31,948 nucleotides of DNA from a virus, in IMG/VR virus record IMGVR_UViG_3300020578_000281, positions 1 through 31,948 of that record; one strand, written 5' to 3'. The position numbers and the translations under genes are program-made. A model generated the notes under the pieces. It did no database searches, was not told the origin of the DNA, and was given only the letters and a program-made list of their open reading frames with translations. How positions within the stretch are numbered: position 1 is the stretch's first letter; every line of letters starts with the position of its first letter. Below, one piece after another: positions 1-27,519 of the stretch.

Positions 1-1230
1 GTGTGCTAAAGCCGATGTATCCGTCATGCAATGGATTTCCGTCGGTCGTAAAACGAATGTATTTATCAATTGGTGCGTTTAACCAGGTTTCACCATCATT
101 CTTTTGAACTATAGCGTATTTGCCCAGAGAATGATTAAGGTCTTTGTGACCGAACATCGCATAAGTCCCAGCAAATCCAGGCAATGAACCTATCTCTGCG
201 TCTCCGATAAATGCGTCGGCGGAAGTTGAAGAAGATCCAGTTATCTGCGTAAAGGTGCTGCCTGAAATAACAGTTCCTAAAAGACCGTGATTGATTCTTA
301 CCATCCCAAGACTTTTGGTATTTCCGATCGTAATAAGTTGAGGCTGTGTCGCTGCTGTACCAATATTAATGGTACGTGTTGAATCACTCGTACCGATATC
401 GATGTTTCCTTCTCCAGCATCAAGCTTCAGGAAGCTATCACTCACAGTGCTTCCCAGCGTAAAAGATCCTCGGCTTCCAGCTCTTCCTGCAAAATTAAAA
501 ACTGTGCCAAACAGTGTGCTAAAGCCGATGTATCCGTCATACGACACGTTGCCATCAGTCGTAAAGCGAATGTATTTGTCGATCGGAGAATTTAACCAGG
601 TTTCACCATCATTCTTTTGAACTATAGCATATTTGCCCAGAGAATGATTAAGGTCTTTATGACCGAACATCGCATAAGACCCAGCAAATCCAGGCAATGA
701 ACCTATCTCTGCGTCTCCGATAAGTGCGTCGGCGGAAGTTGAAGAAGATCCAGTTATCTGCGTAAAGGTGCTGCCTGAAATAACAGTTCCTAAAAGACCG
801 TGATTGATTCTTACATACCCAAGACTTTTGGTATTTCCGATCGTAATAATTTGAGGCTGCGTCGCTGCTGTACCAACATTAATGGCACGTGTTGAATCGC
901 TCGTACCGATATCGATGTTTCCTGTTCCAGCATCTATCGTTGTAGAAGAATTACCGTATGTACTACCTATGTTTACACCAGCTCTGTCTCCTGATCTTCC
1001 TGAAAGGTTGATCAATGTTCCAGCACCAGCACCAGCATATCCAATGTAACCATTGTAAGATGGATTTCCTGCTGACGTGAAATACACATATTTAGCTTCT
1101 GGCGCATTTAAATAAGTGTCTCCGTCATTCTTTTGAACTATAGCATATTGACCTAAACTTGTTTGATTTTTATGACCAAACATAGCGTAGGTGCCTGCGA
1201 ATCCAGACAAAGAGCCAACCTCGGCGTCAT
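1..1230 (-). repeat. 513-bp tandem repeats inside the tail-fibre gene
   Basis: Positions 1-421 and 514-934 are nearly identical at a constant offset of 513 bp (171 codons, in frame). A third, diverged copy is aligned at the same offset and recognisable over about 1027-1230; for example the GACCGAACAT at 661 corresponds to GACCAAACAT at 1174. The segment between the conserved blocks (about 422-513) is variable. Near-identity of two copies at DNA level points to a recent duplication or ongoing recombination. Confidence 0.9.
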
Positions 1231-1681
1231 AAGTCGTAATATTGCCTGTCGTGTCTGCGACAGTTGCGACAGAATTTTGCAATAATTTTCCCGTAGTCCC
1301 ATTAAATCTTGCTATTGCATTAGCAGTTGCGCTGGCAGGTCCTACGACGTCTCCTGTGCCAGCTCCACCAGCAGTGGAAGAAATTGTAATTTGACCATTC
1401 GATGCTGATGTTATTGTTATATTATTTCCTGCGACAAGATAAGAAATTCCACTATGAAGCCTAGTCAAGGATCCACTTAACCCTTGTCTAAAAAATGAAG
1501 CACCATTTGAAGTTAGGCCTCGAGAAAAAGTTGATTGACCGGTAACTTTTAAGTTAGAAGCAGAATCCGTTAATCCTATTTGAAAGTTATTAGGACTTAA
1601 TATAAGTTTAGTCGTTTTATTATTGGTATCTTTGACAACTAAAAATATAGATTTATCTACTTCATTTTTTGTTATTGTCAT
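1..1681 (-). CDS. Tail fibre / receptor-binding protein with tandem repeats, 3' end cut off by window edge
   Basis: The minus strand is open for 560 codons from an ATG at 1681 to the left edge, so the C-terminus lies outside the window. The first 110 residues are an N-terminal region with small beta-rich segments. At about 110-137 comes the run GDVVGPASATANAIARF followed by NGTTGKLLQNS, a pattern seen in many phage tail fibres. After it come repeats of 171 residues carrying YAMFGHK, KYAIVQKNDGETWLN, DGYIGFS and GTAATQPQxITIGNTKSLG. It probably forms a trimeric fibre that contacts the host surface. No chaperone or peptidase end domain can be seen because the end is missing. The gene is the last in the baseplate/tail block, 12 bases after the 470-aa gene, and has no Shine-Dalgarno-like sequence. 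It is clearly richer in G+C than its neighbours (31 of 60 bases in 661-720), hinting at exchange. Gene class is confident; the receptor is unknown. Confidence 0.85.
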   Translation of the reverse strand, partial: MTITKNEVDKSIFLVVKDTNNKTTKLILSPNNFQIGLTDSASNLKVTGQSTFSRGLTSNGASFFRQGLSGSLTRLHSGISYLVAGNNITITSASNGQITISSTAGGAGTGDVVGPASATANAIARFNGTTGKLLQNSVATVADTTGNITTYDAEVGSLSGFAGTYAMFGHKNQTSLGQYAIVQKNDGDTYLNAPEAKYVYFTSAGNPSYNGYIGYAGAGAGTLINLSGRSGDRAGVNIGSTYGNSSTTIDAGTGNIDIGTSDSTRAINVGTAATQPQIITIGNTKSLGYVRINHGLLGTVISGSTFTQITGSSSTSADALIGDAEIGSLPGFAGSYAMFGHKDLNHSLGKYAIVQKNDGETWLNSPIDKYIRFTTDGNVSYDGYIGFSTLFGTVFNFAGRAGSRGSFTLGSTVSDSFLKLDAGEGNIDIGTSDSTRTINIGTAATQPQLITIGNTKSLGMVRINHGLLGTVISGSTFTQITGSSSTSADAFIGDAEIGSLPGFAGTYAMFGHKDLNHSLGKYAIVQKNDGETWLNAPIDKYIRFTTDGNPLHDGYIGFST

Positions 1682-1691
1682 AATATTATGA
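1678..1691. promoter_or_regulatory. 14-nt perfect palindrome over the tail-fibre start codon
   Basis: TCATAATATTATGA is self-complementary over 14 bases and contains the tail-fibre ATG. It could be a protein-binding site or a small mRNA structure, but palindromes this short and AT-rich are expected a few times by chance in this window, so a function is not established. Confidence 0.25.
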
Positions 1692-1693
1692 AA

Positions 1694-3106
1694 TTATGCT
1701 GTTAAGTTACCAGAATCATCTAAGCTTAACGTAATTAATGATAAATTAGTTACAAAACTTGATTGTCTGTTTCTAGTCTGCATATCAAAATAAGGTAAAG
1801 AAGACGTCGCATATTGACTTAAGTTTTGAGATTGAGTATTCTCTGGTTTAGTTATATTTCCTTCTGAATCAACAAAAGTTACAACAACAGGATTGTTTAG
1901 AATTGTATATGAAGATTTTTTTTCATTTATAACATTGACAAAAATTCTTTGTTCTAACATATCTCTAAATTGTCCAAATCTTCCTTGTCTAAAATAAGCA
2001 GAAGTGTATTGAGGTAACCCGCTATATAATCCGTATCTCCACCCTCTAATAATAGGCCCTATATTCCAGTAACTTGTTCTTACTGACTCATAATTCCCTG
2101 CGGGAGCTCCTCTTGGGCTTAATGACGTGGTTTTTCTATCTCTAAAATCAGGCCAGTTTGTTGTTCCGCGACGAGCAAAGCTCGTTCTTTCAAAAGAATC
2201 AACTATATTAGAATCAAAAAATACAGTACTAACATCCCCATAACCGAATATTGTTTTTATTAAATCGTTTTTATTCGTTGAACCGGTTATTGCAGTAGGC
2301 GATGACAAGTTAACGTCAATTGACCAATGGTGATACCAATTTCCTGTTGACGGCGAAGAATAGTCTAAGTCTTTAGCTTCTTTTACTGGACGATAAACCT
2401 TTTGTCGGCCGACTGTTCCAACTATTAACCCATTAACTTGTTTATTAGTTGATAGCTGCGTAAATGTTTGAGAATAAAATTCTGCTACATGAGAAGCTTC
2501 TATGTTATTAAATAGCAATTCTTTTTTTCTTTGCACATTAGAATATTTCGGTTCAAATGGATACGATTTAGTCCAATGCTTGTCAACACCTGGGTTTAAG
2601 TTTACTGGTCTATTTATCCCCGGGGTGTTGGCTGAGGGGATATAGTTATCAAAAATAATAAACCCTACATCTCTATTTTGAATACCAAATGCTGGCCCGC
2701 CGCCGGCGGCTTCATCATCCGACGGATACATATAAAAAATATTACCGCCATTTATTTTGAAGCACGCAATAGGATCAGGCGGCAATGTGTCGTATATTCT
2801 TTCTTCTGCACAATCATGTTTTGAAGCCTTTAAATTTCCTGCCTTTTCGCTGTACGGTTGCATTCTATAAGAAACAGAGTTTGAAAAATCGAAAATAGAA
2901 GTCCCAGGGGTCGTCGTGTTTTCGTAATTCAATATCTTTCCAAATATCACGCCTCTATCAAAAGAAATTCCATTGGTAGGTACTAGTTTTTTTATTCCAC
3001 GTTCCTGTCTAATTTCAACTAAACGACCCGCAACAACTCTATCATAAGTTCCAGAAATATAAGATTCTTTACTCTCTATTTCATGTTGATCAAGAACTCT
3101 TACCAT
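1694..3106 (-). CDS. Probable tail/baseplate structural protein, family not recognised (470 aa)
   Basis: I do not recognise this protein. It has no signal peptide and no membrane segment. It is rich in aromatic, Ser, Thr and Asn residues with many short beta-type stretches, like its structural neighbours. A Gly-rich loop (DEAAGGGPAFG, about residues 130-140) is encoded by an unusually GC-rich patch. The chosen ATG at 3106 is preceded by a strong GGAGGA Shine-Dalgarno sequence nine bases away and overlaps the end of the 970-aa gene by seven bases, so the two are probably translationally coupled. Its place between a large beta-sandwich protein and the tail fibre suggests a fibre-attachment or baseplate-periphery protein. 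That is inference from position only. Confidence 0.6.
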   Translation of the reverse strand: MVRVLDQHEIESKESYISGTYDRVVAGRLVEIRQERGIKKLVPTNGISFDRGVIFGKILNYENTTTPGTSIFDFSNSVSYRMQPYSEKAGNLKASKHDCAEERIYDTLPPDPIACFKINGGNIFYMYPSDDEAAGGGPAFGIQNRDVGFIIFDNYIPSANTPGINRPVNLNPGVDKHWTKSYPFEPKYSNVQRKKELLFNNIEASHVAEFYSQTFTQLSTNKQVNGLIVGTVGRQKVYRPVKEAKDLDYSSPSTGNWYHHWSIDVNLSSPTAITGSTNKNDLIKTIFGYGDVSTVFFDSNIVDSFERTSFARRGTTNWPDFRDRKTTSLSPRGAPAGNYESVRTSYWNIGPIIRGWRYGLYSGLPQYTSAYFRQGRFGQFRDMLEQRIFVNVINEKKSSYTILNNPVVVTFVDSEGNITKPENTQSQNLSQYATSSLPYFDMQTRNRQSSFVTNLSLITLSLDDSGNLTA

Positions 3107-6012
3107 GTCTTTGTTCCTCCAGCAACTACATCGTGAATTGCAACAGATGCTAATGGTTGATTTAACGTGTCATGAAATTCTTTTCCTTCGGAGATTAAAC
3201 TTCCATAAAGAGTAATATGAATGCTTCCTGTGGTTAATTTGATATCATGTTCTATGGACCCAGAAGTATAAGGAGGAGATGCTGGTATGGCTGGTCCTCC
3301 GGTCGGAGGAATTGTTTCTACTCCTGAAAAAAATACCGGTCTTGATTTCGAGACAGAAAGTATCAACTTGTCTCCAGGAAATAAAAGATATGGTGATGCT
3401 ACTGTCTTTTGTTTTTGAGCAATTGAAGTTGCATATAAAACTTTATCTAATCCGCCAGCAAAAGAAATTATATTTTTTAAATTTTGAAGAGTTGAACTTT
3501 TTTTATACAAATAGAATGGATTGTCATAACTTTTTTCTGTAAAAGTCTTAAATTCTTTTCCGAATATCGAACGATTTGATGAGTCAAATCCTTGTGAATT
3601 TCTTCCAAAGTTATTTATCGAAAGAATTGCGCGTTCTCTAGTACCAGTACTTCCTCCAAAGCTAAAAACAGTTGTTTCTTCGCTTCCGAATGTCCACTTT
3701 TCAGTATTAAGAAGTTGTGTTAACGCTGAATGAGCAGCGCTTACAGACATTCCTCCGTGGGGCCCTGTATATGCTTGCGTTATATAAAAAATATCTTTTG
3801 CTAAAAATCCATTTGATATAGAAGATTGGCAATTAACCACGACGCTTCCAGTATATTGACCCACGGTTCCACTGCGAATAACCGCAGTAGGCCAAGAATA
3901 AGCCTTAAATCCTATCGGACTAAGCTGCCATATATTCCCTGATTGAGAAGTCGGACCAGCAGAAATATCTGGCGTGTTAGAATAAGTTAATTCTGATATA
4001 TCATCAAGTTCATGGGTAAAAGTTCCTGATAAAATCAAATCTCTAACACTGGTCCTTCTACCTGAAAAAACTTGATTAAACAATGAGATTGTTATGCCAG
4101 GTCCTCCAACATCAAACGTTGTTGCTACGGATCCTGGTACTTGTGGAGAATTTGAAGTTAATGGAATAAAACATCTAGTTTTATCATTAAACCATCCAGG
4201 TCCAGCTTCAATTGGTATTTCAATTACTGCTTTTTCTAGTAAGAACGGTTGTTGAATCGGTATTGTGAATGTTTCGTCATCTATTGCTGAATATCTGTTA
4301 TCTGCTTGGACGCTTTTGTCATACTTTTTTGTAAGAGCGTTTATTTCATTTTCACGAGTTAGAGAACTATTTATTAATCCGTCAGTTGCTCTAGTTCCTA
4401 TTGATCTATTTGCAGAGCCTGAAATTAAATTAAAACCAAAAGCATTAAAGCATCTATCGACTTCGATTATTCTATCAGCAGATGCATCTCCATATGGATT
4501 TGCTATGTCAAATTGCCCATTTAAAAATGATGAAGTTGGATATTGCCATCTATTTGTTTTTGAATTAAAGTAATAAATGCTTGATGAAGCTCCGAATAAT
4601 TTTGTTTTATGATCAACTCTAAAAGATAGTCTAATTTGCGTCTTTGATTTTAATGATTGATTGAATCCTTCCCCTACGTCTTCAATTTTACTACCTGTTA
4701 AGAAAAAAGAGTCAGATAATGCGTTTGGATCATTTTCAAAAATTTTATTTTCATTAAATGGGCGTATGTAATCTTTTTTTGTATCTTCTAAATAAGAATC
4801 TACGAGAGATTTGACAATACTCGAAGTTATAATAAAATTGTTAGAAAATAAGTTTTGGTTTTCTGATACGCTCAAAAGATTTGACCCATAAAACCTCGGC
4901 AATGAAGTTGGAAAACTGACTACGCCGTTTGTGTAAGCTATCGATTTTCTATCATCAAATGATATTTTGTGATTTCCTGTTCTTGAATCACCGGTTTTAG
5001 CTATCGTTGGTAGATTTATTTTTGAATCTTTTTCTTTTAGTAAAGATCTGGGTAATATCCTTCTTAAATTTAATGGTGGGTGAAAGGTAAAAACTGCTCC
5101 AATTTCTCCGATGGCTGGCCAATGTTGATCAATTTTTAAGTTACACGCATATTTCGCCGTATTTCCATCTGCTAAGTCAGAATATGATGGATTATACGTG
5201 GCACCACCAAATTCATATTTTGTTCTTGCATAAGTTTCATAATTTAATTCATAAGAAAAATCTCTAAAAGAATTACCCGTCATAAAGACGCCGACTGTCG
5301 CATCTTCTTCTGTTGAAGAAACAAATTGCAATTTTGATAATGGAAGATAACGATATTCTATTTTCCCATTTTCGTATAAAACAAATTCAAATTTTATTAC
5401 ATTTCCTCGTACTGTCGTTGAAGACCATCTAATGATTAATCTTCTACCTTCAGGATTTTGATTATCGTTGTAATATCTGACACCATAATCTATCGGGCTT
5501 AACTTAGCATCTGGTTGTGATAATCCTTTTTCGTATAAATCAATTTGATTTATTGATAATCCTGCTGATGACGGGTCTTCATATCGATTTTGCAAATCAT
5601 CAAACCAAACTGCAAACAGAACGTGTTTTATATTACCAGCAAAATTTGCTTTGATTGCTGCATTAGCATATGATACAGGTGAAAGCAATCTAGGAGGAGG
5701 AGGGAATGGTGGAATTACAAATATGTCAGATAAATTAAATGTCCCATATCTAGGATCAATTAAGCATACCCATCCATCAGGGGAAACAACAAATGACTTA
5801 TATGCTAGCCCATTAAATAAAAATGGAAACCCTATATCAATAGGGGAACTTACACCGTCGTCAACTCCTTCTTGTGATATTGGATCAGGTATACAAGAAA
5901 ATTTTTGTTGTGGTACGCTAACGAACCCAATGTTATATTCTTTGCTTAACGTAAGAATATATTTTGAGATGTCTCTATTAGGTGCTGCTCGTAAAGATTT
6001 TGGAGTAGGCAT
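3100..6012 (-). CDS. Large virion protein with an N-terminal NIDO-like beta-sandwich (970 aa)
   Basis: The start chosen is ATG 6012, one base after the stop of the 301-aa gene; an upstream in-frame TTG at 6033 would overlap that gene and is less likely. Residues about 45-260 carry the pattern IDIGFPFLFNGLAYKSFVVS followed by DGWVCL, then IIRWSS and later FVLYENGKIEYRY and ATVGVFM. This strand pattern is typical of nidogen-like and related extracellular adhesive sandwich domains in bacterial surface proteins. The remaining roughly 700 residues are Ser/Thr/Asn-rich with no motif I recognise. No signal peptide is present, as expected for an intracellularly assembled virion part. Position in the tail block suggests a baseplate-periphery or adhesin role. 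Domain similarity is from pattern recognition only. Confidence 0.6.
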   Translation of the reverse strand: MPTPKSLRAAPNRDISKYILTLSKEYNIGFVSVPQQKFSCIPDPISQEGVDDGVSSPIDIGFPFLFNGLAYKSFVVSPDGWVCLIDPRYGTFNLSDIFVIPPFPPPPRLLSPVSYANAAIKANFAGNIKHVLFAVWFDDLQNRYEDPSSAGLSINQIDLYEKGLSQPDAKLSPIDYGVRYYNDNQNPEGRRLIIRWSSTTVRGNVIKFEFVLYENGKIEYRYLPLSKLQFVSSTEEDATVGVFMTGNSFRDFSYELNYETYARTKYEFGGATYNPSYSDLADGNTAKYACNLKIDQHWPAIGEIGAVFTFHPPLNLRRILPRSLLKEKDSKINLPTIAKTGDSRTGNHKISFDDRKSIAYTNGVVSFPTSLPRFYGSNLLSVSENQNLFSNNFIITSSIVKSLVDSYLEDTKKDYIRPFNENKIFENDPNALSDSFFLTGSKIEDVGEGFNQSLKSKTQIRLSFRVDHKTKLFGASSSIYYFNSKTNRWQYPTSSFLNGQFDIANPYGDASADRIIEVDRCFNAFGFNLISGSANRSIGTRATDGLINSSLTRENEINALTKKYDKSVQADNRYSAIDDETFTIPIQQPFLLEKAVIEIPIEAGPGWFNDKTRCFIPLTSNSPQVPGSVATTFDVGGPGITISLFNQVFSGRRTSVRDLILSGTFTHELDDISELTYSNTPDISAGPTSQSGNIWQLSPIGFKAYSWPTAVIRSGTVGQYTGSVVVNCQSSISNGFLAKDIFYITQAYTGPHGGMSVSAAHSALTQLLNTEKWTFGSEETTVFSFGGSTGTRERAILSINNFGRNSQGFDSSNRSIFGKEFKTFTEKSYDNPFYLYKKSSTLQNLKNIISFAGGLDKVLYATSIAQKQKTVASPYLLFPGDKLILSVSKSRPVFFSGVETIPPTGGPAIPASPPYTSGSIEHDIKLTTGSIHITLYGSLISEGKEFHDTLNQPLASVAIHDVVAGGTKTW

Positions 6013-6928: not shown

Positions 6929-9900
6929 TTATAAATTTCCTTCATGTATGATTCTTCTTTTGTTTTGTTTTACGTAGTTTTCTGAAAAGAAATACTCTAT
7001 TTTATGTCTTTCTAGCATGTGAGATTCAATAACGAAGTTAGTTCCTTTATACATTGTTTTCTTTGGCATCAATTGTTCAATAAATGTGCTGATTGAATTA
7101 TCAAACCAGCTGTAGAATTCCATAAAAGCTTTAAAATTTAATTTATCTTTTAAACGATTGAAATAAATGCTTCGCAATTTTTCTAAATCTGGATAATCAG
7201 AAGAAAATACTAATTCTGGATTTCCTAAATAATTTTCCATAGATTCAAATGTCGAAAACATATTAATAATATCTTTGTTTAAAGAATCAACTAACGAAAA
7301 ATCTATTGAAAATCTGGCATCATCTTGTGGCGTCTCTGATCTTGTTATTTCGTAAACAGGAGACGGTCTTGCCCATTCATTTCTTGATATCAAATATTCA
7401 TCATTATATCCTCTTACTCTTACTTTTTCGTTAGTAACAGCTTCATCAAAGTATGCAGATAAATGAGAATATCGAATGATTTCAGGCAACATGCAATTTT
7501 TATTAGCTGGAAATCCCGTCCCATTTAAGTTTATTCCGTTTTCACTAAAATCCAAAAATGTAATGTTACCGTTATTGTCAGCTGACTTTATTTCTTGCTT
7601 TACTAAAGATTCTAATCTTAATCTTTCGTAAGAACCTGATTCTGAAATCGAATAGTTGTAATTTACCAGCGGGTTGTCGACGCCTAATGATTGATAGTTT
7701 GTTAAATGAGATAACCATTCATTTTCACTTAACGCTTTTGACCAAAATTTTAGTCTTAAAGCGCGACCATCAAATGCAGTTTTTCTTGAAACAGATTCTG
7801 CAACTGAAAGATTGTTATTTAAAAAACGATAAGTTGAAGTAGAACCTTCAGGAATTGTTTGATTAGATCCTAGTGTAATAAACGCTCCAGAAACGTTGGT
7901 TTGATAAACTAAATCTAATTTCCTGAATACGTTACTATCTAATGGCGAACCAGATCCTGTTAATTCATAAAAATAAGATGAAGTTGTAGATGAATACAAA
8001 ACCTCTCCTTCATTTTGAGTACCTACTCTTATAAAATAAGACGATGATGCTATAGAATCAATTGAGTCATTTCTCTCGCAACCGAAAGAAACGTTCCAAA
8101 TATCACCATTAAACAAGCTGCCCGTTGGCAAATTTAAAGTCATGTCTAATAAAGGAGCATTATCATCATTTCCAGGGCGCAAAAACAGTCTAACCTTTGG
8201 ATCATTTTCATCATAATATCCAATGAGATTTGCAACTAATCCTGGATTTTGTATTCCTGATCCCGTTACGCATAACCTTGCTAGGCTTTGAGTAAAAGAT
8301 GATAATGAGATAGGTAGTTCATATTTGTAATTGCATTCGAAAGTCCATGAACCTGATGTTAGCAATCCGTCGTTGATAGAGTTTGATATTCCATGAGGAT
8401 TATAAATGTGCTTTTGTACGAATGTTCCTTCTGGCTTGGGATATCCAGGTTGTAATCTAGATGATGACAAGAATTGAGACGTGACTAAAGAAGATGATGA
8501 AAAATTAATGATGGTCGTTAAATCAGATTTACTTTCTTTCGCATGAAGCAATTTTCTATATGTAGGTCCACCATATTCTCTAAATCTTACGCTAGAATCA
8601 GGTTCTATTCCGATTGATCTTAGAAATGCTTTTATACTTTGTTGCGTACCTTTAGAACGAATTATTGAAGGTAAATTTATTAATATTCTTCTTAAAATTT
8701 CATGTTGAACTGACCTTAATGATAAGCTTTCATTTCCTTTAATTAAAGGATCAATATTTTCTGCAAGAACATATTGATCAATTGTCGCCGATGTGAAAAG
8801 CGGAGGTAAAAAGAAGCCATAATGTTTTGCAATATCAAATAACATGTTATTTGGAATGCTCTTATTTAATTCATAATCTACTGTCTTTAAAGAGCTAAAT
8901 GCATCTAAAAACAATTTAATTTCATCAAAAAACTTTGCCCATATGTAGAGCAAAGATAACATAATTTGAACGTTGTTTAATTTACCTTGCCCTGGTATTC
9001 CAGAGCCTCCGTATTGAGATCCATTATTGGCTTCAGCTGATGTCAATCCTTCAGCAGCGGCGCCTTCGACAAGGTAGTGTCGAGGAATTAACTTGGTTAT
9101 GATATTAGGATTTTCTAAATCGTATGCAGATGCGCTTGTTAACAATTCAACGTTTAGATTAATTACATCTTGATATGCGGGGAATAAAACAGGTGATAAA
9201 TCATTTCTTTCATAAATTAAATTGCTTAATGGATCATTTTTTGCATTTTCTCTCAAAAAACCAGAAAAATTGCTAATGAAAGAATGTAATGAATTTCCTG
9301 AACTATCTAAAACTATAGAGTTTGTGATATCATCAGTTATTGGTGATAGAGGTGGTGCGGGTTCGTTAAATTTATAATATAGTTTTAAATCTGGCGCGCT
9401 ATGTATGGATTTTTTTGCGTAAGATTTTTGTTGAGAAGTTGTTCTGAATGAGTGAAATATTCTTAATTCGTCGATAGTTCCTGACAACGTCTGTCGAGGC
9501 GTTACTAAATTTCCTTCTACATAATAGGAAGTTCCGCTTCCTATCAATAAATCGTTATAGTCTATGCTAAGATTACCTATGGTAGTTGAACCTGTTGTGG
9601 TAGAAATAATAGATTCGTTATTAAAAATTTTTAAATTTTGTAATTTTGAATCTCTATCTAAAACGAAGCATAAATGATTAAAAATTCCTTTTTCAATCGT
9701 TGCAGATGTTGACATAGCCAATGAACCAGAAAAAACGTCGAACTGTGCTATGGAATAATTCGTAGAAGCTATAGGGTTTAAACGTATAGAAAACCCATGA
9801 TTTTTATCATGATTAATCTTTTGTAATAATATTTGTGTTCCATTAGTTTGAATTTTAGGAATTTTTAATTGTAGCTCTATGCTTAACGAATTATTGTTTT

Positions 9901-10402
9901 TAGGGTTTAATGTAGAAACTTGTGCGTCGGCATTTGGACTTAATGACGGAAATATTACCCCTTGAATATCTTTTACTTGTATATACGTTCCTAATGTTGG
10001 TAAAGTTTCAGTTGTTTGAGTTCCTGAAAAATGAAGTTGTCCTTGATACTTTGGAAATCTATCAAAAACCCACTTGTCAAATCCAGATAAATCAGTAAAG
10101 AAATTTTCGACTTCTTCTCTAGTTCCGTCAAACGGGAATCCATTTATGATTTGCTCAAAGGTTAAATTTACTTTAGCTTCTGCTGACATGAAGAAGGTAT
10201 GATTTTCAAATTTTGACCAGTCAACGTTTAACTGCTGAGATGATTTTAGCCCAGTTCCGTTTACGTCATATCCAAAAGAATCTGGATTTTGTATGTTTGA
10301 TCCGGAAAAATTAGAATAAGATAGTGAGAACGATCTCGCACTATTTAAGGATTGTTCTCTTAAAAACGATGGAACGTATTGCGAATATCGATAATTTGAC
10401 AT
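6929..10402 (-). CDS. gp7/gpI-like baseplate wedge protein with two LamG-like domains (1157 aa)
   Basis: The middle of this protein (about residues 480-615) looks like P2 gpI/T4 gp7-type tail proteins: a helical stretch, then RRILINLPSIIRSKGTQQSI and KAFLRSIGIEPD, the typical arginine plus KGT and AxxxxLRSxG pattern. Residues about 170-335 form a concanavalin/LamG-like sandwich ending in SGTIDELRIFHSFRT. A second one at about 680-905 ends in GRALRLKFWSKALSENEW. In T4, gp7 joins two gp6 subunits in the inner wedge; here the two lectin-like sandwiches would project from that core. Length is similar to T4 gp7 (about 1030 aa). Immediate neighbours gp6 and gp25 support a wedge role. It starts two bases after the preceding stop. 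LamG domains may bind host glycans or be purely structural. Confidence 0.7.
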   Translation of the reverse strand: MSNYRYSQYVPSFLREQSLNSARSFSLSYSNFSGSNIQNPDSFGYDVNGTGLKSSQQLNVDWSKFENHTFFMSAEAKVNLTFEQIINGFPFDGTREEVENFFTDLSGFDKWVFDRFPKYQGQLHFSGTQTTETLPTLGTYIQVKDIQGVIFPSLSPNADAQVSTLNPKNNNSLSIELQLKIPKIQTNGTQILLQKINHDKNHGFSIRLNPIASTNYSIAQFDVFSGSLAMSTSATIEKGIFNHLCFVLDRDSKLQNLKIFNNESIISTTTGSTTIGNLSIDYNDLLIGSGTSYYVEGNLVTPRQTLSGTIDELRIFHSFRTTSQQKSYAKKSIHSAPDLKLYYKFNEPAPPLSPITDDITNSIVLDSSGNSLHSFISNFSGFLRENAKNDPLSNLIYERNDLSPVLFPAYQDVINLNVELLTSASAYDLENPNIITKLIPRHYLVEGAAAEGLTSAEANNGSQYGGSGIPGQGKLNNVQIMLSLLYIWAKFFDEIKLFLDAFSSLKTVDYELNKSIPNNMLFDIAKHYGFFLPPLFTSATIDQYVLAENIDPLIKGNESLSLRSVQHEILRRILINLPSIIRSKGTQQSIKAFLRSIGIEPDSSVRFREYGGPTYRKLLHAKESKSDLTTIINFSSSSLVTSQFLSSSRLQPGYPKPEGTFVQKHIYNPHGISNSINDGLLTSGSWTFECNYKYELPISLSSFTQSLARLCVTGSGIQNPGLVANLIGYYDENDPKVRLFLRPGNDDNAPLLDMTLNLPTGSLFNGDIWNVSFGCERNDSIDSIASSSYFIRVGTQNEGEVLYSSTTSSYFYELTGSGSPLDSNVFRKLDLVYQTNVSGAFITLGSNQTIPEGSTSTYRFLNNNLSVAESVSRKTAFDGRALRLKFWSKALSENEWLSHLTNYQSLGVDNPLVNYNYSISESGSYERLRLESLVKQEIKSADNNGNITFLDFSENGINLNGTGFPANKNCMLPEIIRYSHLSAYFDEAVTNEKVRVRGYNDEYLISRNEWARPSPVYEITRSETPQDDARFSIDFSLVDSLNKDIINMFSTFESMENYLGNPELVFSSDYPDLEKLRSIYFNRLKDKLNFKAFMEFYSWFDNSISTFIEQLMPKKTMYKGTNFVIESHMLERHKIEYFFSENYVKQNKRRIIHEGNL

Positions 10403-11938: not shown

Positions 11939-13774
11939 TTACAAAGATGTCCTTCCTATTATGTTTATCTCTGGATATTTGAATTCAAACATGCCACCAA
12001 TGGGTGGATACAAAATTCCTTTTCTAGTATTGCTTTTAATATCATGAAAATAATTGCTATATTCAAGACTATTAATATTTCCAGACAAATTCTTGAATTG
12101 CAAATTATTAACAGATATAACACCTTGCGTTCTAAAAATTAAATTTTGTATATCTGATATTACGATGGGTTGATCAATAGAAAAATTCTTTGTTTCAAAT
12201 TGAAATATAAGATTTCTCAAAATGTTTTGAATGATTATTTGAGAGTTTAAAGAAGGATCAGAGACTACATCAAAGTTAAATTCTAGATTTACAATTGGAA
12301 CGTCAAGAATTTCTATCGCATCCGTTATCATTCTATACGGAGTTAGATACTTTCTAAGATTTTCTTTTAACGTATCTGAAGCATGAACTAATTTAGAATC
12401 TTGATCTCTACAAATAACGTGTAATTGAGTTACAATCGGATTGTTTGGATTTGAACGAGCAGCTGCTCTAAATACCCTTCCAAAATTAGAAGGTAGTGAA
12501 TATACTCTTGCCAACAAGTCTTCTCTTGTTACAATTCTTTCTTGAGAATTTCTTGCGCTTGGTATTAGCGATTTTAGCTCATTAATTGTAGGCGAATCTT
12601 CGCCACCGACAGCTTGTTCTCTATTCGATACCCCTATGCTACTTCTAACAGATGATATTACGTCTATAGAAGGGTTATTAGGAAAAGTTATAACTAAAGT
12701 TTGAATCGCGTTGATTGTATCTGGTGGCGCGTTGTGAGACAATCCACCTCCATAACGATACGTTACTGATAACGTAGAATTTGCAGAATATATTCCTAAC
12801 GTTCTTGTTTTTAGTAATTGAAGGGGATTAATAGATGTTCTAGAAAATGTCTTTGAATATGGAAAAGATATTGCAAAGTCAGAAGGATCAGGAACTATGT
12901 CATCTTCTATGCTAGTGTCATCTCCTCCTCCTAAAATTAATGTTACTGTTCTAGTAGATAAATCAGTCGAAGTTACAAATCTATAAGGAGCAGGAATAAC
13001 TTTTAATGCTTCTGATATTTCTTGAGAATCTTTTGCTAAATTTAAGACATTTTTGTAAACGACATCATCAGTCAACGAGTTAACTTCGTAATAAACATTA
13101 CCTAAACTATCATAAACGTTTATTATATCGGTTACGTTTGATTCAGATAATCTTACTGATCTAAATGGGATAAAAGAGCCTAGTCCAAACGTTTCGGTCG
13201 TCTCAGTTCCAGAAATGCATGGTCCGCTTGCTGCTAATAGAAAGCTTAATGGGACTCCACTTTCTGTTCTTCTTCCAACTTTTACTTCAGCGGCGTAATT
13301 TCCATCAGCCCTCTTTTTAGAAAAATCTATATCTGATAAAAGGTTAAATGCAATATTATTTATAGAAACAAATATAGTGCCTGCTTTAATTACAGGTAAA
13401 GAAGATGAAGAAACAGCTACTTTTGAATTGTTAAACGCCGCCGGAACTTCGATAAAAACAGTCACATCAACTACGGCAGGAGAAGCTCCAACTATTTTTG
13501 TTCCGGATGTTCTAATTAGTCTTTCTATATTTTTTGTTTCAATCGCAGTTTCTGGATCTAACTCATTATATTGATGATCCAAATAAAACGACATGGTATC
13601 GCCTGCATAAGCAGCTAAATCTAAAAACATTCCTCCCAAAGAAGTTTCTGAAAAGTCTTGTATTTTATCCGGATAATATAACCTAGCATAATTCAACAAT
13701 TGTGTTCTAAAAGAATCGAAATCTTTTGCAAGATAATTTCGAGTTCTAAATTGTGTTAAGTTACTTTTTGCCAT
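11939..13774 (-). CDS. gp6: Baseplate wedge protein, gp6 / gpJ-like (611 aa)
   Basis: The N-terminus carries the hallmark of T4-like gp6 proteins: RNYLAKDFDSFRTQLLNYA, YYPDKIQDFSETSLGGMF, LDLAAYAGDTMSFYLDHQYN (residues about 12-70), followed by a long beta-rich middle and a C-terminal region with an NSQERIVTREDLLARVYSLP segment and an FGRVFRAAARS strand, as in the gpJ core. T4 gp6 is 660 residues, so this copy is near full length. gp6 forms the inner iris ring of the baseplate together with gp7 and gp53 and drives its conformational change. It follows gp25 by 25 bases. No gp53 equivalent was recognised nearby. Confidence 0.9.
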   Translation of the reverse strand: MAKSNLTQFRTRNYLAKDFDSFRTQLLNYARLYYPDKIQDFSETSLGGMFLDLAAYAGDTMSFYLDHQYNELDPETAIETKNIERLIRTSGTKIVGASPAVVDVTVFIEVPAAFNNSKVAVSSSSLPVIKAGTIFVSINNIAFNLLSDIDFSKKRADGNYAAEVKVGRRTESGVPLSFLLAASGPCISGTETTETFGLGSFIPFRSVRLSESNVTDIINVYDSLGNVYYEVNSLTDDVVYKNVLNLAKDSQEISEALKVIPAPYRFVTSTDLSTRTVTLILGGGDDTSIEDDIVPDPSDFAISFPYSKTFSRTSINPLQLLKTRTLGIYSANSTLSVTYRYGGGLSHNAPPDTINAIQTLVITFPNNPSIDVISSVRSSIGVSNREQAVGGEDSPTINELKSLIPSARNSQERIVTREDLLARVYSLPSNFGRVFRAAARSNPNNPIVTQLHVICRDQDSKLVHASDTLKENLRKYLTPYRMITDAIEILDVPIVNLEFNFDVVSDPSLNSQIIIQNILRNLIFQFETKNFSIDQPIVISDIQNLIFRTQGVISVNNLQFKNLSGNINSLEYSNYFHDIKSNTRKGILYPPIGGMFEFKYPEINIIGRTSL

Positions 13775-13799
13775 TTTATACTCACTTTTATTATCAAAA

Positions 13800-14261
13800 T
13801 TATATTACATATAATGATATCTGAAGAGCTTTATTTTCTATATTCAACTGTGGGACGCTATAAGTTATTGTTATTCTTACAAGTCCTAAATTTCTATTAT
13901 TTTCATCGATATCTGAAATAAAGTCATTTAGTACTATAAAAGGCATCCACGTACTTACTGCATCTCTTATTCTAGTTATTGCTTGTTCGTCAAATTCTTC
14001 GGTCGTCGAAATTTCTGAAGTTAATTCTTGCAAGTTTGCGCCAAAATAGTAAAATCCGACTCTTTCGCCCCAATTTGTTAAAAGTAGATTTTTTACATTG
14101 TCTTGAATTTGTTCTTCTGCGGTATAATTCATCGCTAGAAGATTTTCTGCGTCAAGCCTTAATGGAGTTTTTATCCCTATAGGTAAAGGTGTAGCTTTCA
14201 CTATTTCTTTAGAAATTTGTGTGTTAGTTTTACCTGAACTTGTAAAGCTATATGTACCCAT
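13800..14261 (-). CDS. gp25: Baseplate wedge protein gp25 / GPW-family (153 aa)
   Basis: The 153-residue protein has the gp25/GPW pattern: an N-terminal strand, AEEQIQDNVKNLLLTNWGER, VGFYYFGANLQELTSE, AITRIRDAVSTWMPF, and a C-terminal VRITITYSVPQLNIENKALQ strand region. T4 gp25 is 132 residues and nucleates sheath polymerisation at the inner baseplate. The usual GERxxxPxFG motif is GERVGFYYFG here. The gene lies directly ahead of gp6, the same order seen in many contractile injection systems. The start at 14261 has no strong Shine-Dalgarno sequence, and the 45-base gap before it contains a repeated CGTTAAAT but no clear promoter. Confidence 0.85.
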   Translation of the reverse strand: MGTYSFTSSGKTNTQISKEIVKATPLPIGIKTPLRLDAENLLAMNYTAEEQIQDNVKNLLLTNWGERVGFYYFGANLQELTSEISTTEEFDEQAITRIRDAVSTWMPFIVLNDFISDIDENNRNLGLVRITITYSVPQLNIENKALQISLYVI

Positions 14262-14306
14262 GGCTTACGACGTTAAATATTGATTTGTCGTTAAATCGTT
14301 GCCAAT

Positions 14307-16046
14307 TTAAATGAATACTTCTTCTAGTCCTTTTCCAAAATTTTTATTAACTTTTGTCCCTCTGTACTGTTTTTCTGAAGGAGCCGGATTTGCTCTATAA
14401 ATTAATTCTAATTTTTTGAATGAAAGATTTTCGTCTATTGTCGTTCTGCCGGCTTGGAAATGCATATGATCTTCATGTATCTTTGCTGGAGTAAATATAC
14501 CAGGGCCTGTAAACCACTTTAGCTTGCTATATTTGTCTATATGCCCAACATTCCATTGGTTTCCAAATTTTTCTATTGCCCATAACTCAAATTCTTTGTA
14601 TATTTTACTTCCAATTAAAATACTTCTATAAGGAATTAGTTTTTGTCCATCATCGGTCCAAGGAAGCAAGCGGCCTTTTTCAATCAGACTAATTTGCCAT
14701 TCATGAAACAACCATCTTCCTATTTCATACATCGCAGCAAAATCATGCGTAAGTTTACCTTCTATTCTATAAGGTTCGCCTGCCCCGCCTGCACATTTAA
14801 ATGGAGATAAATTCGAAAATTCTTTAATTTCAGTTGCGTTATTATTCTCGATTCCTGACATCCAATTTCCAGCTTTATCTCGCATAGGATATGCCATATC
14901 AAATGCAGTACCACCATGAGTTTCAGACCAGGGGTTGATTCTCCACCCTGACCCCTTAGGAATTGACTGTCCTTGTGGACCAACGAACGCATTACCTGTA
15001 ATGTTTCCAACTTCAAGAGTTACTGAATCTTCATTATTAGATTTTCTATAGCTTTTATCATTGTACATGTGTTCAGATAAAGCATAGATCGTCTCTAACG
15101 CGTAATTGTCTCCATAAGACATATTTCTGCTTGGGAATAAAATAACCATATTTTTTTCATTAGATTGAAGTTTATAAAGATTATTTTTTAAAGCTTCTCT
15201 ATCTAACTTTGTCTCAGATCCTGGAATGTCTGCTACGGTTACGTAACCTTTTATTGCTCCAAGCTCTTTTAATAATTTTGTTGCTCCAACAGTTGTAGCA
15301 GCCGTCCGCGCGGCCATGGCTTCGCTTGCTAATGTTAAAGCTACATTTAAATCTGCTATATACCCTATCGGATCAGAAGTTATTGGTTGGGTTAACGGTT
15401 TTACGACGGTTTCTAATATTTGCTTTGCAGTATCAAAAAGCTTATTTGGTGTAAAGCTTGCCCACCATGAAGGATCCTTGGTAACTATGTCTAATTGCGC
15501 TTGAGCTATTGGAAGCGCATTAATAAATGCTAAATTAAATCCTTCCTGACTAGGATAATTAGGTGTTCCACCTCCTCCCCAAGCTGATTTGCCCGTTGTT
15601 GATAAAATTTTTATCTCTGGATAAACGGGGGCTGGAGCTACAGGAGGCGGTTTTACTAAATTTGATAAGTTAGATAAAAAATCAGGGATATCATTTGGTT
15701 TTATATTTAGCAATGCGGGTATAGATGCTTGAGGAACAGCAAATGAAGCGATAATTGTCGCCAAATCTAAAGGAGGCTCTTTTATTTTTAAAGCAGCAGC
15801 TACCCCGCTAGGATCAAAAACTGGTATCGTTGATAACGGCGCGGAAACATCAAGGGTTTTCATCGAAAAACCTATAGTTCCATCAATTAATTGAGAATGC
15901 CAATCCCCATATCTTTTTAAATCATTTAAATCTATTTGCTTAGAATAAGGATCAAAATTTTTATAAATTTCTATTGCTCTTGTTCTAAAAGCATTAGAAA
16001 TTGTTCCATCTGGATTCAGCGCGCCGAATGAAGTTAGTATACTCAT
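14307..16046 (-). CDS. Baseplate protein with C-terminal LAS-type (M15/M74-like) peptidase domain (579 aa)
   Basis: The C-terminal half shows the metal-site pattern of LAS-superfamily peptidoglycan peptidases (M15 D-Ala-D-Ala peptidases, M74 MepA): THGGTAFDM with His377 and Asp383, and IHEDHMHFQAG with His527 and His529. The H-to-D spacing is one residue shorter than the usual HxxxxxxD, so the first ligands need checking. The N-terminal 300 residues contain Pro/Ala-rich and hydrophobic helical stretches without a recognised domain. It lies between the gp5-like spike gene and gp25, one base after the former's stop. It probably sits in the tail hub and cuts host peptidoglycan during DNA entry, a job done in T4 by the gp5 lysozyme domain, which the neighbouring spike protein appears to lack. 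Confidence 0.6.
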   Translation of the reverse strand: MSILTSFGALNPDGTISNAFRTRAIEIYKNFDPYSKQIDLNDLKRYGDWHSQLIDGTIGFSMKTLDVSAPLSTIPVFDPSGVAAALKIKEPPLDLATIIASFAVPQASIPALLNIKPNDIPDFLSNLSNLVKPPPVAPAPVYPEIKILSTTGKSAWGGGGTPNYPSQEGFNLAFINALPIAQAQLDIVTKDPSWWASFTPNKLFDTAKQILETVVKPLTQPITSDPIGYIADLNVALTLASEAMAARTAATTVGATKLLKELGAIKGYVTVADIPGSETKLDREALKNNLYKLQSNEKNMVILFPSRNMSYGDNYALETIYALSEHMYNDKSYRKSNNEDSVTLEVGNITGNAFVGPQGQSIPKGSGWRINPWSETHGGTAFDMAYPMRDKAGNWMSGIENNNATEIKEFSNLSPFKCAGGAGEPYRIEGKLTHDFAAMYEIGRWLFHEWQISLIEKGRLLPWTDDGQKLIPYRSILIGSKIYKEFELWAIEKFGNQWNVGHIDKYSKLKWFTGPGIFTPAKIHEDHMHFQAGRTTIDENLSFKKLELIYRANPAPSEKQYRGTKVNKNFGKGLEEVFI

Positions 16047-18073: not shown

Positions 18074-18838
18074 TTAAAATATATTAGAATAATTAGAAAT
18101 TTGTTCCACTTTTAATTTATTATAGTGTTTTTTAATTGCCTGCATTGATGTTGTTAGCTGTTTCGGGCTAAGACCTGATAACTCTCTTATGTAGAGAAGG
18201 ATGGCACTTTTATTTAAAATGTCAATATCATTGATATTTTCAAATATAGTTATTACTGAATTTATGCAAAGTAATTCGTTTTCAACCTTAACTTTTGAGC
18301 GTATCTCATACATCAGTTTTAAAATTCCTGATATATTTTCAGAATTTTCTAATACAGAATCTTGAGACGGGATAGAACCTCGTTCTTCTATAATTTGAAG
18401 TTCTGAAGCATTAAGGCTTTTTTGATCATCAATGCTAACATCTCTTTTTCCTCTTTGAACTTTTTGTTTGGTTTTTATTATCAACCAGTTTTTTGCAACA
18501 ACGTTAAAATAAGAAAACGCATTTGTTCCCATTGCGGGATTGAATTTATGAATTGTTTCAAACAAAAAATTTACACAATCGTTTTTTAAATCGTCGTATG
18601 TGTCATGTAACCCGCTAAACTTGTGAATATTGATTAGGTTTTCAACTAACTTTTCAAAAGCAGGGAGTATTTTTTCGACGTAAAATTTTTCTCTAACTTT
18701 TCTATCATCTGCTTTTTGAAATTCGCATATTGCTTTTTGTGTTTCTGCAGTAAAATAAAATTTAGAGTCTTGAGGTTCTTTTTCATCTGAACTCTTTTGT
18801 CTTCGTTTTCTTGTTTTTTTTATTTTTACTTTTTTCAC
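18074..18838 (-). CDS. gp55: Late-transcription sigma factor, gp55-like (254 aa)
   Basis: After a very basic N-terminal tail (KKVKIKKTRKRRQK) comes a sigma region-2-like block at about 55-125: FEKLVENLINIHKF, DLKNDCVNFLFETIHKFNP, then GTNAFSYFNVVAKNWLIIKT, the signature of T4 gp55 and its cyanophage relatives. There is no full region 4, as expected for this class. It would redirect host RNA polymerase to phage late promoters. The start is GTG at 18838, overlapping the TGA of the membrane-protein gene as GTGA, which suggests coupled and perhaps low-level translation. T4 gp55 is 185 residues, so this one is longer mainly at both ends. Confidence 0.8.
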   Translation of the reverse strand: MKKVKIKKTRKRRQKSSDEKEPQDSKFYFTAETQKAICEFQKADDRKVREKFYVEKILPAFEKLVENLINIHKFSGLHDTYDDLKNDCVNFLFETIHKFNPAMGTNAFSYFNVVAKNWLIIKTKQKVQRGKRDVSIDDQKSLNASELQIIEERGSIPSQDSVLENSENISGILKLMYEIRSKVKVENELLCINSVITIFENINDIDILNKSAILLYIRELSGLSPKQLTTSMQAIKKHYNKLKVEQISNYSNIF

Positions 18839-19143
18839 GTTAATTTATCCTCATCAGAATTTAAGTTTTCAAACGGGCTTGATATTTTATTTGCAATAAG
18901 CAATAATGACTGTCTAGTTTTTTTTACGTCATTAACCATTGAAACGATAACTGGGTCATCAAACATAATTGGAGACTTTAAATGTTTTGATATGTTAGAG
19001 TAAGACTCATCTATAATATCTAAAGATTCTTCGATTTGAATTGCTAAAGAATCTAAAGTTTCTGCTGATTTCAAAAAACGTTTAATAGTGAACAATAAAC
19101 CAATTGAAGTTAGCAAATTTGTTGTTATTAACAAGTAAATCAT
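18835..19143 (-). CDS. Small single-helix membrane protein (102 aa)
   Basis: Residues about 2-20 (IYLLITTNLLTSIGLLFTI) form a hydrophobic helix followed by KRF, giving a likely N-terminal membrane anchor. The remaining 80 residues are charged and helical with heptad-like spacing (IQIEESLDIIDESYSN), ending in an acidic tail. No known motif was seen. It starts in an ATGA overlap with the upstream glycosyltransferase and ends in a GTGA overlap with the sigma gene, so its production is tied to both. The layout would fit an inner-membrane spanin-like or superinfection-related protein, or an anchor for the glycosyltransferases. None of these can be shown from sequence. Confidence 0.55.
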   Translation of the reverse strand: MIYLLITTNLLTSIGLLFTIKRFLKSAETLDSLAIQIEESLDIIDESYSNISKHLKSPIMFDDPVIVSMVNDVKKTRQSLLLIANKISSPFENLNSDEDKLT

Positions 19144-20306
19144 ACACTAACCAAATACTTCGAAAGTTTTTCATCATAAATCTTAGAAACAGAATTATGA
19201 TTATAAAATTCTATAATTTTCTTTGACCCTTCAACGGCCCATTTTTTTGGTAAAGAAGATGAATTTTTAAACTTTATTATTTTCTTTTTAAAATCATCTT
19301 CCAACGGCTCTGCCCACTTTGAATCATTCATGAATATCTTATTATCAATTCTAGAAGCATGAACTTGAACTAAGTCGTAGTTAACACCAATAAATTTAGT
19401 GTGTTTCATAAAATCTAAATGACCAGACCAATTTGTAGCGATAACTGGCAATCCTGATGCTGCAGCTTCTAATATCGGAAGTCCGTATCCTTCTCCTCTT
19501 GTCAATGAAATTAGCGCTTTTACTTTAGGGTTTTTGTAAAGAGATGAAACATGCGCATCGCTCATTTCGCCATGCAGCAAATAAATTTTAGGATTGATTG
19601 ATTTACGAACTTCTCTTAAAAGAGCTTCAAGATTTTTTACCACAATATTACGATCAATTTTTGTATTTCTTCCAGCATTTGTTTTGATAATAATTCCAAC
19701 GTCATCATCCTTAGAAAATGTTTCGCATAACCATTTAATAGTAAATAATAAATTTTTTCTATCATTAAATGGATTATTTCCAGTCATTTGACCAAAAACC
19801 AAAAAGTTAAAAGAAGTTTTTATTTCAGAAAGATCGATTCCATCATTAACTTTTGTAATTTCTTCAGTAAAAGACTCAGGTATAATGTGAGACTCAACGT
19901 TTAATTGTCCTGAATTTTTCAAGCTTTTTAATGCGTGGGTTGAAGGCAAAATAATACATGACATTTTATTGCATGCATGAACCCATTCATGATTTGCTAA
20001 ATCTGTTTCTACTGAAGCTGTGATGCCGATATTCGTTTTTGCTAAATTGTTATCCCATTCATTAGGAAGTTGAAGTTGAATTGAAACATCATAGCCGCTA
20101 GCGTTACTTGCGGTTCTACACATGATTTGTTCGATTAGTCCATCACATTTAGTTTTATTTAAAATCCATGGAGTATCGCCCCACGGGGTTAATAAAAACT
20201 TGACATCAATATCTTTTCTTGACAATAACCATTTTGCAACTTGGCGGCTATGAACTCCATATCCGGATTGCGTGAGGGCAGGTCCTCTAAAAACAACTTT
20301 TTTCAT
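19140..20306 (-). CDS. GT4-like glycosyltransferase (GT-B fold, 388 aa)
   Basis: The N-terminus KKVVFRGPALTQSGYGVHSR is the nucleotide-sugar GT-B start with a GYG loop. The C-terminal donor-binding domain carries FLVFGQMTGNNPFNDRKN, LISLTRGEGYGLPILEAAAS and GLPVIATNWSGHLDFM, the EGYGLPILEA (E-x7-E) motif of GT4 retaining enzymes. Length is typical. It probably transfers a sugar to a glycan or virion protein on the cytoplasmic side. An AGAGGA ribosome-binding sequence precedes the ATG, and the gene follows the other GT4 gene by nine bases. Confidence 0.85.
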   Translation of the reverse strand: MKKVVFRGPALTQSGYGVHSRQVAKWLLSRKDIDVKFLLTPWGDTPWILNKTKCDGLIEQIMCRTASNASGYDVSIQLQLPNEWDNNLAKTNIGITASVETDLANHEWVHACNKMSCIILPSTHALKSLKNSGQLNVESHIIPESFTEEITKVNDGIDLSEIKTSFNFLVFGQMTGNNPFNDRKNLLFTIKWLCETFSKDDDVGIIIKTNAGRNTKIDRNIVVKNLEALLREVRKSINPKIYLLHGEMSDAHVSSLYKNPKVKALISLTRGEGYGLPILEAAASGLPVIATNWSGHLDFMKHTKFIGVNYDLVQVHASRIDNKIFMNDSKWAEPLEDDFKKKIIKFKNSSSLPKKWAVEGSKKIIEFYNHNSVSKIYDEKLSKYLVSV

Positions 20307-20315
20307 TTTTCCTCT

Positions 20316-21560: not shown

Positions 21561-21566
21561 GTCGTT

Positions 21567-21597
21567 ATATTACTAACTTTTAAAAAGTTTGTAATAT
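21567..21597. promoter_or_regulatory. 31-nt near-perfect palindrome between nuclease stop and GT4 start
   Basis: Left arm 21567-21581 and right arm 21583-21597 pair at 14 of 15 positions around base 21582 (ATATTAC, one mismatch, AACTTTT, then the complements). In the minus-strand transcript it lies immediately after the nuclease TAA and seven bases before the next ATG. There is no U-run after it in that direction, so it is not a standard intrinsic terminator; an operator, an mRNA-stability element or a processing site are the options. Confidence 0.6.
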
Positions 21598-21599
21598 TT

Positions 21600-22418: not shown

Positions 22419-22438
22419 TATGTGATAGTAACACCCTC
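22399..22438 (-). promoter_or_regulatory. 12-bp perfect inverted repeat with the nuclease start codon in its loop
   Basis: Left arm 22399-22410 (GAGGGTGTTACT) and right arm 22427-22438 (AGTAACACCCTC) are perfect reverse complements around a 16-base loop (22411-22426). In the minus-strand mRNA, the 5' arm contains the only Shine-Dalgarno-like sequence (GAGGG) and the loop contains the nuclease AUG. Folding would hide the ribosome-binding site, so a translational operator is the simplest reading; a DNA operator for a dimeric repressor is the alternative. No U-run follows, so a terminator is unlikely. Confidence 0.65.
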
Positions 22439-22450
22439 TTAATTGTTAGT

Positions 22451-23416: not shown

Positions 23417-23433
23417 AGATTTTATATAATCTA
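23416..23433. promoter_or_regulatory. 6-bp inverted repeat at the dehydrogenase start
   Basis: TAGATT (23416-23421) and AATCTA (23428-23433) pair across a six-base loop directly upstream of and touching the dehydrogenase ATG (23416-23414). On its own this is within chance expectation for AT-rich DNA; it is recorded because the two other gene boundaries of the dehydrogenase-nuclease segment also carry inverted repeats. Confidence 0.25.
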
Positions 23434-23447
23434 AAAAAAATTAAAGT

Positions 23448-25050: not shown

Positions 25051-25071
25051 TTATTTCTCCAAGCAAAATTT

Positions 25072-25910: not shown

Positions 25911-25912
25911 TT

Positions 25913-27516: not shown

Positions 27517-27519
27517 TTT

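Follow-up and report, generated by a model that had tools for sequence, protein, structure and literature searches.

Tandem in-frame 513-bp units in a putative tail fibre gene of an uncultured phage suggest exchange of shaft cassettes and changing copy number

The window analysed here, a stretch of 31,948 bases that makes up the whole of a virus record, ends on its left side in a gene that is best read as coding for a long, probably trimeric tail fibre. Tandem 171-residue shaft units of this fibre would be exchanged as cassettes, with the copy number changing in the process (probability about 0.7). Comparison with related contigs supports the gain, loss and exchange of repeats among the relatives, and not inside the window's own lineage.

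The fibre ORF lies at positions 2–1681 on the minus strand, starts with an ATG at 1681, encodes 560 amino acids and is open at the contig end. Since the window is the complete record, the assembly itself stops at this left edge. Bases 1–421 match bases 514–934, which lie 513 positions further on, in 391 of 421 positions (92.9%), including 298 of 312 in the subset 110–421. A chance repeat is ruled out, as every other offset from 100 to 2999, taken over the entire window, gives at most 176 of 421. Because 513 is 3 × 171, the repeat is in frame; the tandem copies are located inside one ORF with the reading frame open throughout, and the protein identity between copies is high. The first-pass annotation had described two almost identical stretches with a variable part between them. 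The match was borne out at the exact offset, "almost identical" being slightly generous, and the copies do diverge beyond it (60% in block 401–450 and 56% in block 451–500). A further, more diverged copy at 722–1234 had been omitted; a repeat search recovers it at 72% over 109 bases and 77% over 60 bases.

The array thus comprises three copies, all on the minus strand. Copy 1 (residues 150–320) occupies 722–1234, copy 2 (residues 321–491) occupies 209–721, and copy 3 (residues 492–560, positions 2–208) is cut by the contig end. Each unit consists of an all-beta domain of about 80 residues followed by a Gly/Ser/Thr-rich shaft part of about 90 residues (GNIDIG...INIG...ITIGN). The domain was named FGH after its motif YAMFGHKD. 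It is found at 1004–1231 in copy 1 and at 488–721 in copy 2, and the shaft parts are at 722–931 and 209–418, respectively. The array is preceded by an N-terminal part of about 103 residues (1373–1681, minus strand), presumed to attach the fibre to the virion; several relatives in the equivalent gene slot start similarly. The linker and the start of the first module (1100–1375, minus strand) follow. Elsewhere in the window, an AT-rich 19-bp tandem repeat of 2.8 copies is present at 24106–24158, in a stretch with a GC-content of 22%.

The suggestion that the array may continue to the left was followed in a second contig, IMGVR_UViG_3300021376_004539 (L002, 14,583 bp), which shows no differences from the window over the 5,000 bases before the fibre gene. 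Copy 3 is present in L002 for 506 of its 513 bases, at which point this contig ends too. At least three copies are therefore demonstrated. In L002, copy 2 is 77% identical to copy 1 and 93% identical to copy 3 (the missing end counted as gaps), the divergence of copy 1 being mainly in its first half. An exact scan of viral contigs with a 29-base pattern matched L002 only, with three copies at a spacing of 513, and two further module scans of viral contigs gave no contig beyond those already found.

The window and L002 differ at 10 of 1,680 fibre positions against 0 of 5,000 outside (Fisher p 1e-6), one of the ten being at the window edge. Eight of the ten fall within 96 bases, where copy 1 of L002 is equal to its own copy 3. 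This cluster fits exchange between copies and also fits short-read assembly of repeats, and was given no weight. No difference in copy number between the two contigs was seen as far as both can be read. The ten differences are of mixed types with no adenine-specific pattern, and the eight clustered ones match the paralogous copy; this is not the pattern expected of the target of a diversity-generating retroelement. No reverse transcriptase was found in the 20 of 27 window ORFs scanned in Pfam, the genome being incomplete. Pairs of inverted repeats of at least 20 bases, such as would flank an invertible (shufflon-like) fibre segment, are absent from positions 1–4000 of the window, the left side of the gene lying beyond the contig.

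Copies 2 and 3 of L002 differ in a patchy manner. Sixteen of their 27 differences (over 504 positions) are in 60 bases, and 9 of 13 synonymous codon changes are within 20 codons; both permutation tests gave p 5e-5, which is the floor of the test, for intervals picked after the differences had been seen. This patch, which holds most of the copy 2/copy 3 differences, many of them synonymous, corresponds to residues 364–381 (539–592, minus strand) in copy 2 and to 26–79 (minus strand) in copy 3. Seventeen bases differ in the 40 codons around it. Copy 1 agrees with copy 3 at nine of these, with copy 2 at three and with neither at five, and the distant phage L003 agrees with copy 2 at 11, with copy 3 at four and with neither at two. 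As the patch is largely synonymous, recombination seems a better explanation for it than selection for variable amino acids. For copies 1 and 2, whose back halves were put through the same test, clustering was not significant (L002, p 0.09; window, p 0.92).

The relatives were collected by a scan with the fibre (9 loci) and a scan with a neighbouring 470-residue protein (80 of 127 confirmed loci kept). According to a profile HMM of the FGH domain, which covers about the first 80 residues of the repeat, the fibres of 12 distinct viruses carry one to six copies; the HMM was built from 19 modules of seven fibres, and the counts in those seven are not independent of it. Comparison of repeat numbers across close relatives, proposed earlier as a check, revealed two pairs that differ. 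Phages L020 and L021 are 99.1% identical over 16.8 kb, and their fibres, which sit further downstream than the gene slot of the window's fibre, have 898 and 662 amino acids with three and two FGH domains. The difference is an in-frame block of 236 residues containing one FGH domain, and the junction lies at a recurring IGN-type motif with seven shared bases. Past the junction, the two differ by 5.0% (51/1,020) against 1.7% before it (20/1,172), so that recombinational replacement may be as likely here as simple loss. Phages L014 and L015 are 97.4% identical over 11.9 kb upstream, and their fibres of 1,182 and 1,415 residues carry four and five FGH domains. L015 and L016 come under two metagenome numbers and show no difference over 21 kb; both have five copies, which counts against fast change. 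L038 and L039 are identical where both are present. The idea of repeat gain and loss is thus supported in the relatives, with no difference seen between the window and L002.

Some of these fibres contain other repeats. The complete fibre of L039 has several shaft repeats of about 111 residues at residues 635–1450 (locus 13296–15741), with DNA 87–95% identical, and an internal duplication of 1,461 bp at 90.6%. The L014 fibre features short collagen-like GPQGYQ repeats at residues 170–194, ahead of the FGH array.

Fibre DNA is also shared between distant phages. A tree of a neighbouring 977-residue protein divides ten phages into clade A (window, L012–L015, L020 and L021) and clade B (L003, L037 and L039) with 100/100 support. 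In the pairs of phages from different clades listed next, protein identity is 27–29% for the 470-residue neighbour, 29–31% for the 977-residue neighbour and 35–50% further upstream. The fibre genes nevertheless share tracts of DNA: 274 bp at 94.9% between the window and L003 (blastn; in the window, the linker and start of the first module at 1100–1375), 696 bp at 98.9% and 191 bp at 98.4% between L012 and L037, 1,265 bp at 98.4% and 287 bp at 88.5% between L015 and L037, and 731 bp at 93.8% and 240 bp at 93.3% between L013 and L037. In one comparison, the second L012/L037 tract was left out because of a wrong register (126/186 differences). Judged by the identity of the surrounding genes, these tracts appear too similar for vertical descent. 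The fibres of L003, L012, L013 and L037, which underlie the cross-clade tracts, run into contig ends. For L037 a chimeric join is possible, since its metagenome number is also that of the clade A phage L014. The window–L003 tract, being diverged, is the safest case.

A tree of 32 modules requires nine changes of clade against a mean of 8.6 for shuffled labels, and its strongly supported branches force five; the control tree has one change with 100/100 support. The module tree, which mixes the two clades, includes one of each duplicated record and leaves aside any match no longer than 50 residues (one of them in L012). Of its 27 inner branches, 11 are left open, and its long rows are uncertain.

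The foreign-looking composition noted in the first-pass annotation stood in part. The quoted counts are correct, and the two 60-base stretches chosen are extremes (51.7% GC at 661–720 and 31.7% at 9661–9720), the fibre ORF as a whole having 41.3%. Its first 105 codons have a backbone-like 31.7% and the rest 43.5%, compared with 32.3% for the other 26 ORFs together. The change point was placed at fibre nucleotide 304 (support interval 112–322), near the start of the tract shared with L003. After residue 105, the codon usage of the neighbours predicts 38.8% GC, so amino-acid content accounts for slightly over half of the excess over the backbone. A GC excess of the shaft is therefore retained, and the case for a foreign gene on composition alone, or for the whole gene, is weakened. 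With N-terminal cuts set by eye (105, 207 and 172), GC at fourfold sites after the N-terminus is 0.24–0.36 in all ten phages, and in the upstream genes it is 0.18–0.22 in clade A and 0.30–0.40 in clade B. In L003 and L039, the fibre and upstream values are close (0.355 vs 0.364 and 0.267 vs 0.298), and this proximity of shaft GC to the backbone is a weak point of the preferred explanation.

The ORF is likely to encode a tail fibre, judging by its gene context and the C-termini of its relatives. It ends a same-strand run that includes genes for a baseplate wedge gp25-like protein (13800–14261, minus strand; Pfam GPW_gp25, 2.7e-07) and a baseplate wedge protein of the T4 gp6 type (11939–13774, minus strand; PHROG phrog_6, 2.7e-16, which we take to be the gp6 family). 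Five ORFs are positioned between the gp6-like gene and the fibre ORF, none with a tail family. Among five relatives whose C-termini were scanned, a C1q domain was found in L014, L015 and L010 (= L020) and an S74 chaperone in L101, and the scan of L039 gave no domain match. The earlier assignment as a tail fibre thus agrees with the baseplate genes and the C1q ends of three of the five relatives; no family match names the ORF itself as a tail fibre. Of the 80 neighbour-gene loci, many of which match the neighbour in part only, 75 have a same-strand downstream ORF of 152–2589 aa, with 35 of at least 1000 aa. The window fibre's own C-terminus lies beyond the contig end. Receptor binding is predicted in this missing C-terminal tip, the modules probably being mainly shaft.

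Several other genes of the window were annotated. The baseplate wedge protein (11939–13774) matched 6 of 50,697 phage records at 29–33% identity; these belong to an uncultured 484-kb phage, Flavobacterium phage immuto isolates and Microcystis phage Mel-JY01. A 1157-residue protein (6929–10402, minus strand) carries a concanavalin A-like (Laminin_G_3) domain at residues 161–322. A 254-residue protein (18074–18838, minus strand) gave no Pfam or NCBIfam match; by eye it presumably resembles a late sigma factor of the T4 gp55 type. Nucleotide-sugar and glycosyltransferase genes are found near the tail genes, at 19140–28542 on the minus strand. They include two group 1 glycosyltransferases, a nucleotide-sugar dehydrogenase and PseB-, PseC- and PseH-like enzymes, the last three named by best NCBIfam matches below the curated cut-offs.

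Database searches did not assign the FGH domain to a catalogued family. Searches of Pfam (E up to 0.1) and PHROGs (E up to 0.01) returned no family for any of 16 FGH modules, and neither these modules nor the fibre protein (P0001) matched the BACON domain in Pfam. A hit of the fibre to DUF4371 was dismissed (17.6 bits vs a cut-off of 32.1). With a first alignment, sequence search of solved structures (E up to 1) gave six matches, namely three WRAP-T chains (about 1e-4), one nine-bladed propeller and two GFP-based sensors; they were judged to be chance matches, and a deeper alignment gave none. The whole fibre had no match among solved structures by sequence. In tblastn at 1e-5, neither the fibre nor the 977-residue neighbour matched any of the 50,697 phage records, and none of 117 candidate stretches in bacterial genomes encodes a relative of the fibre. 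The L101 fibre matches seven phage records from residue 422 onward, mostly at the S74 end; the match to Cobetia phage Carin-5 reaches the last 40 residues of its FGH domain (26%). The L015 fibre matched one phage record over 50 linker residues: residues 214–263, with the linker motif GDVVGPASSTDNAI..., are 62% identical over 50 residues in Mycobacterium phage Boilgate.

Structure prediction suggests a compact fold. AlphaFold2 modelled FGH alone as compact and all-beta with a mean pLDDT of 87.3; within a monomer unit, block means of the domain are 87–95, the next 40 residues have a pLDDT of 70–85 and the remainder is below 66. A fold search of the PDB with both models gave nothing at E ≤ 0.001. 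In a second fold comparison, the maximum Z was 4.0 (2.3 Å over 45 residues), to the Mu tail fibre, followed by T4 gp34 chains at 3.4–3.8; these scores are tied with those of unrelated proteins, and no such fold is claimed. In BFVD, two rows at E 0.001 had fits of 8.8 and 12.2 Å, and closer Foldseek fits of 1.6–2.2 Å over 68–75 residues were obtained with viral proteins at E 0.0015 to 0.05. The top 13 rows carry no protein names. Literature searches with general terms and six BFVD accessions found nothing on these accessions and no publication on the domain.

The FGH unit may be an uncatalogued mobile shaft block belonging to a shared pool, that is, near-identical DNA which circulates between lineages whose adjacent tail-operon proteins retain about 27–31% identity, has a base composition of its own and is stacked, swapped and partly homogenised by recombination; this proposal is tentative and stands at somewhat less than even odds. 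On the preferred reading of the locus, the ORF is the N-terminal part of the fibre, with an attachment part of about 103 residues, a linker and then 171-residue shaft units. Recombination at recurring motifs would move cassettes from one co-infecting phage to another, unequal exchange would alter the length of the fibre, and exchange between copies would keep parts of them alike. The repeats would serve mainly as a spacer and exchangeable shaft, and the receptor would be bound by the distal tip lost at the contig end, where three complete relatives have C1q.

It is also conceivable, though unlikely, that the FGH domains bind receptors themselves, copy number directly altering avidity or host range, in line with the first-pass annotation. 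The domain has a compact, confidently predicted fold, which the later part of the unit lacks, and fibre duplications accompanied infectivity of resistant hosts in EfV12-phi1 (PMC6365445) and, as reported, host range in OP1 (PMC2248197). The position of the modules, shaft-like and ahead of C1q or S74 in the four relatives whose C-terminus was assigned a domain, speaks for a structural role instead, as does the missing Pfam or PHROG family for all 16 modules. Moreover, a contact surface would show an excess of amino-acid changes, whereas the front parts of copies 2 and 3 in L002 differ by 12 synonymous and seven amino-acid-changing codons. Assignment to another surface appendage (whisker, collar fibre or capsid decoration) instead of a host-range tail fibre is very unlikely. 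It would be compatible with the five intervening ORFs and with a tail location read from gene order and the relatives' type of C-terminus, no protein family match being available; the ORF nevertheless closes the run that holds the gp25- and gp6-like genes, and a same-strand ORF, often long, follows at most neighbour loci, partial as many of the neighbour matches are.

Assembly artefacts (repeat collapse or expansion, consensus flattening and chimeric joins) might account for parts of the repeat pattern, for the window/L002 differences or for the cross-clade tracts, and this is distinctly unlikely. Eight of the 15 module-bearing contigs do end inside the fibre gene (window, L002, L003, L012, L013, L037, L038 and L102), and the flattening of assembly bubbles would likewise put all ten window/L002 differences in the fibre and eight of them in 96 bp. 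The other seven contigs (L014, L015, L016, L020, L021, L039 and L101) do not end there, and complete arrays lie inside longer contigs (L014, L015/L016, L020, L021 and L039). At most sites, the differences among copy 1, copy 2 and what can be read of copy 3 fall at matching places in both contigs. The window/L003 tract is 5% diverged and hence no mis-join of identical DNA, and L012 and L037 share tracts despite different metagenome numbers. A plain, old tandem duplication whose copies purifying selection has kept similar, without exchange among them or among phages, would explain the high protein identity, the preserved frame and the lack of significant clustering between the back halves of copies 1 and 2. 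It is scarcely credible given the patchy synonymous differences between copies 2 and 3 and the cross-clade tracts, whose similarity exceeds that expected of vertical descent. Exchange of shaft cassettes with changing copy number is the preferred reading.

The gain and loss of fibre blocks is a known route of phage adaptation (T4, OP1 and EfV12-phi1), of which the array is a new example. In T4, duplication of a small tail-fibre domain reportedly widens host range, and the duplications are said to sit at the adhesin tip (Tetart et al. 1996). The T4 case is similar in that a small tail-fibre domain is duplicated; here, the repeats are probably in the shaft and not in the adhesin tip.

In EfV12-phi1, 1.8-kb in-frame tandem duplications in a putative tail fibre arose in all four coevolution replicates and were absent in controls (PMC6365445). 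As in the window, the duplication is in frame and tandem within a long fibre gene and the copy number varies; that the duplicated part is near and upstream of a predicted carbohydrate-binding domain is counted as a further likeness. Those duplications are laboratory-born, and the copies described here are natural, diverged and common to several phages. The fibres of Xanthomonas phages OP1, Xp10 and Xop411 differ in the number of small duplicated domains, and OP1 host-range mutants are reported to differ by such duplications (PMC2248197). That system, as described there, involves about 118 N-terminal residues and three short domains, compared with 171-residue units and an uncatalogued domain in the window. 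The tail-associated BACON arrays of crAss-like phages are described as grown by duplication and horizontal transfer between lineages (PMC6949934); BACON is a known Pfam domain, unlike FGH, which matches no Pfam or PHROG family. Alteromonas phages of distant families have in common a host recognition module of fibre and chaperone (PMC10579305), in contrast to the sub-gene shaft cassettes proposed here. In under-recruiting islands of marine phages, genes for tail fibres and C1q rank among the most frequent of those that can be identified (PMC3909814).

Variation of this kind was known from coevolution in the laboratory and from certain isolates, and it is suggested here for uncultured phages. 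The two pairs of close natural relatives with unequal repeat numbers support fibre variation outside the laboratory, and shaft tracts of 191–1265 bp are common to clades too diverged for sharing by descent. A shaft domain new to the searched copies of Pfam and PHROGs would aid the annotation of fibres in metagenomes. If the proposal of a shared pool is true, fibre length and shaft make-up would evolve as such a pool and not with the genome, and the BFVD fits of 1.6–2.2 Å leave room for an FGH pool that extends past these phages.
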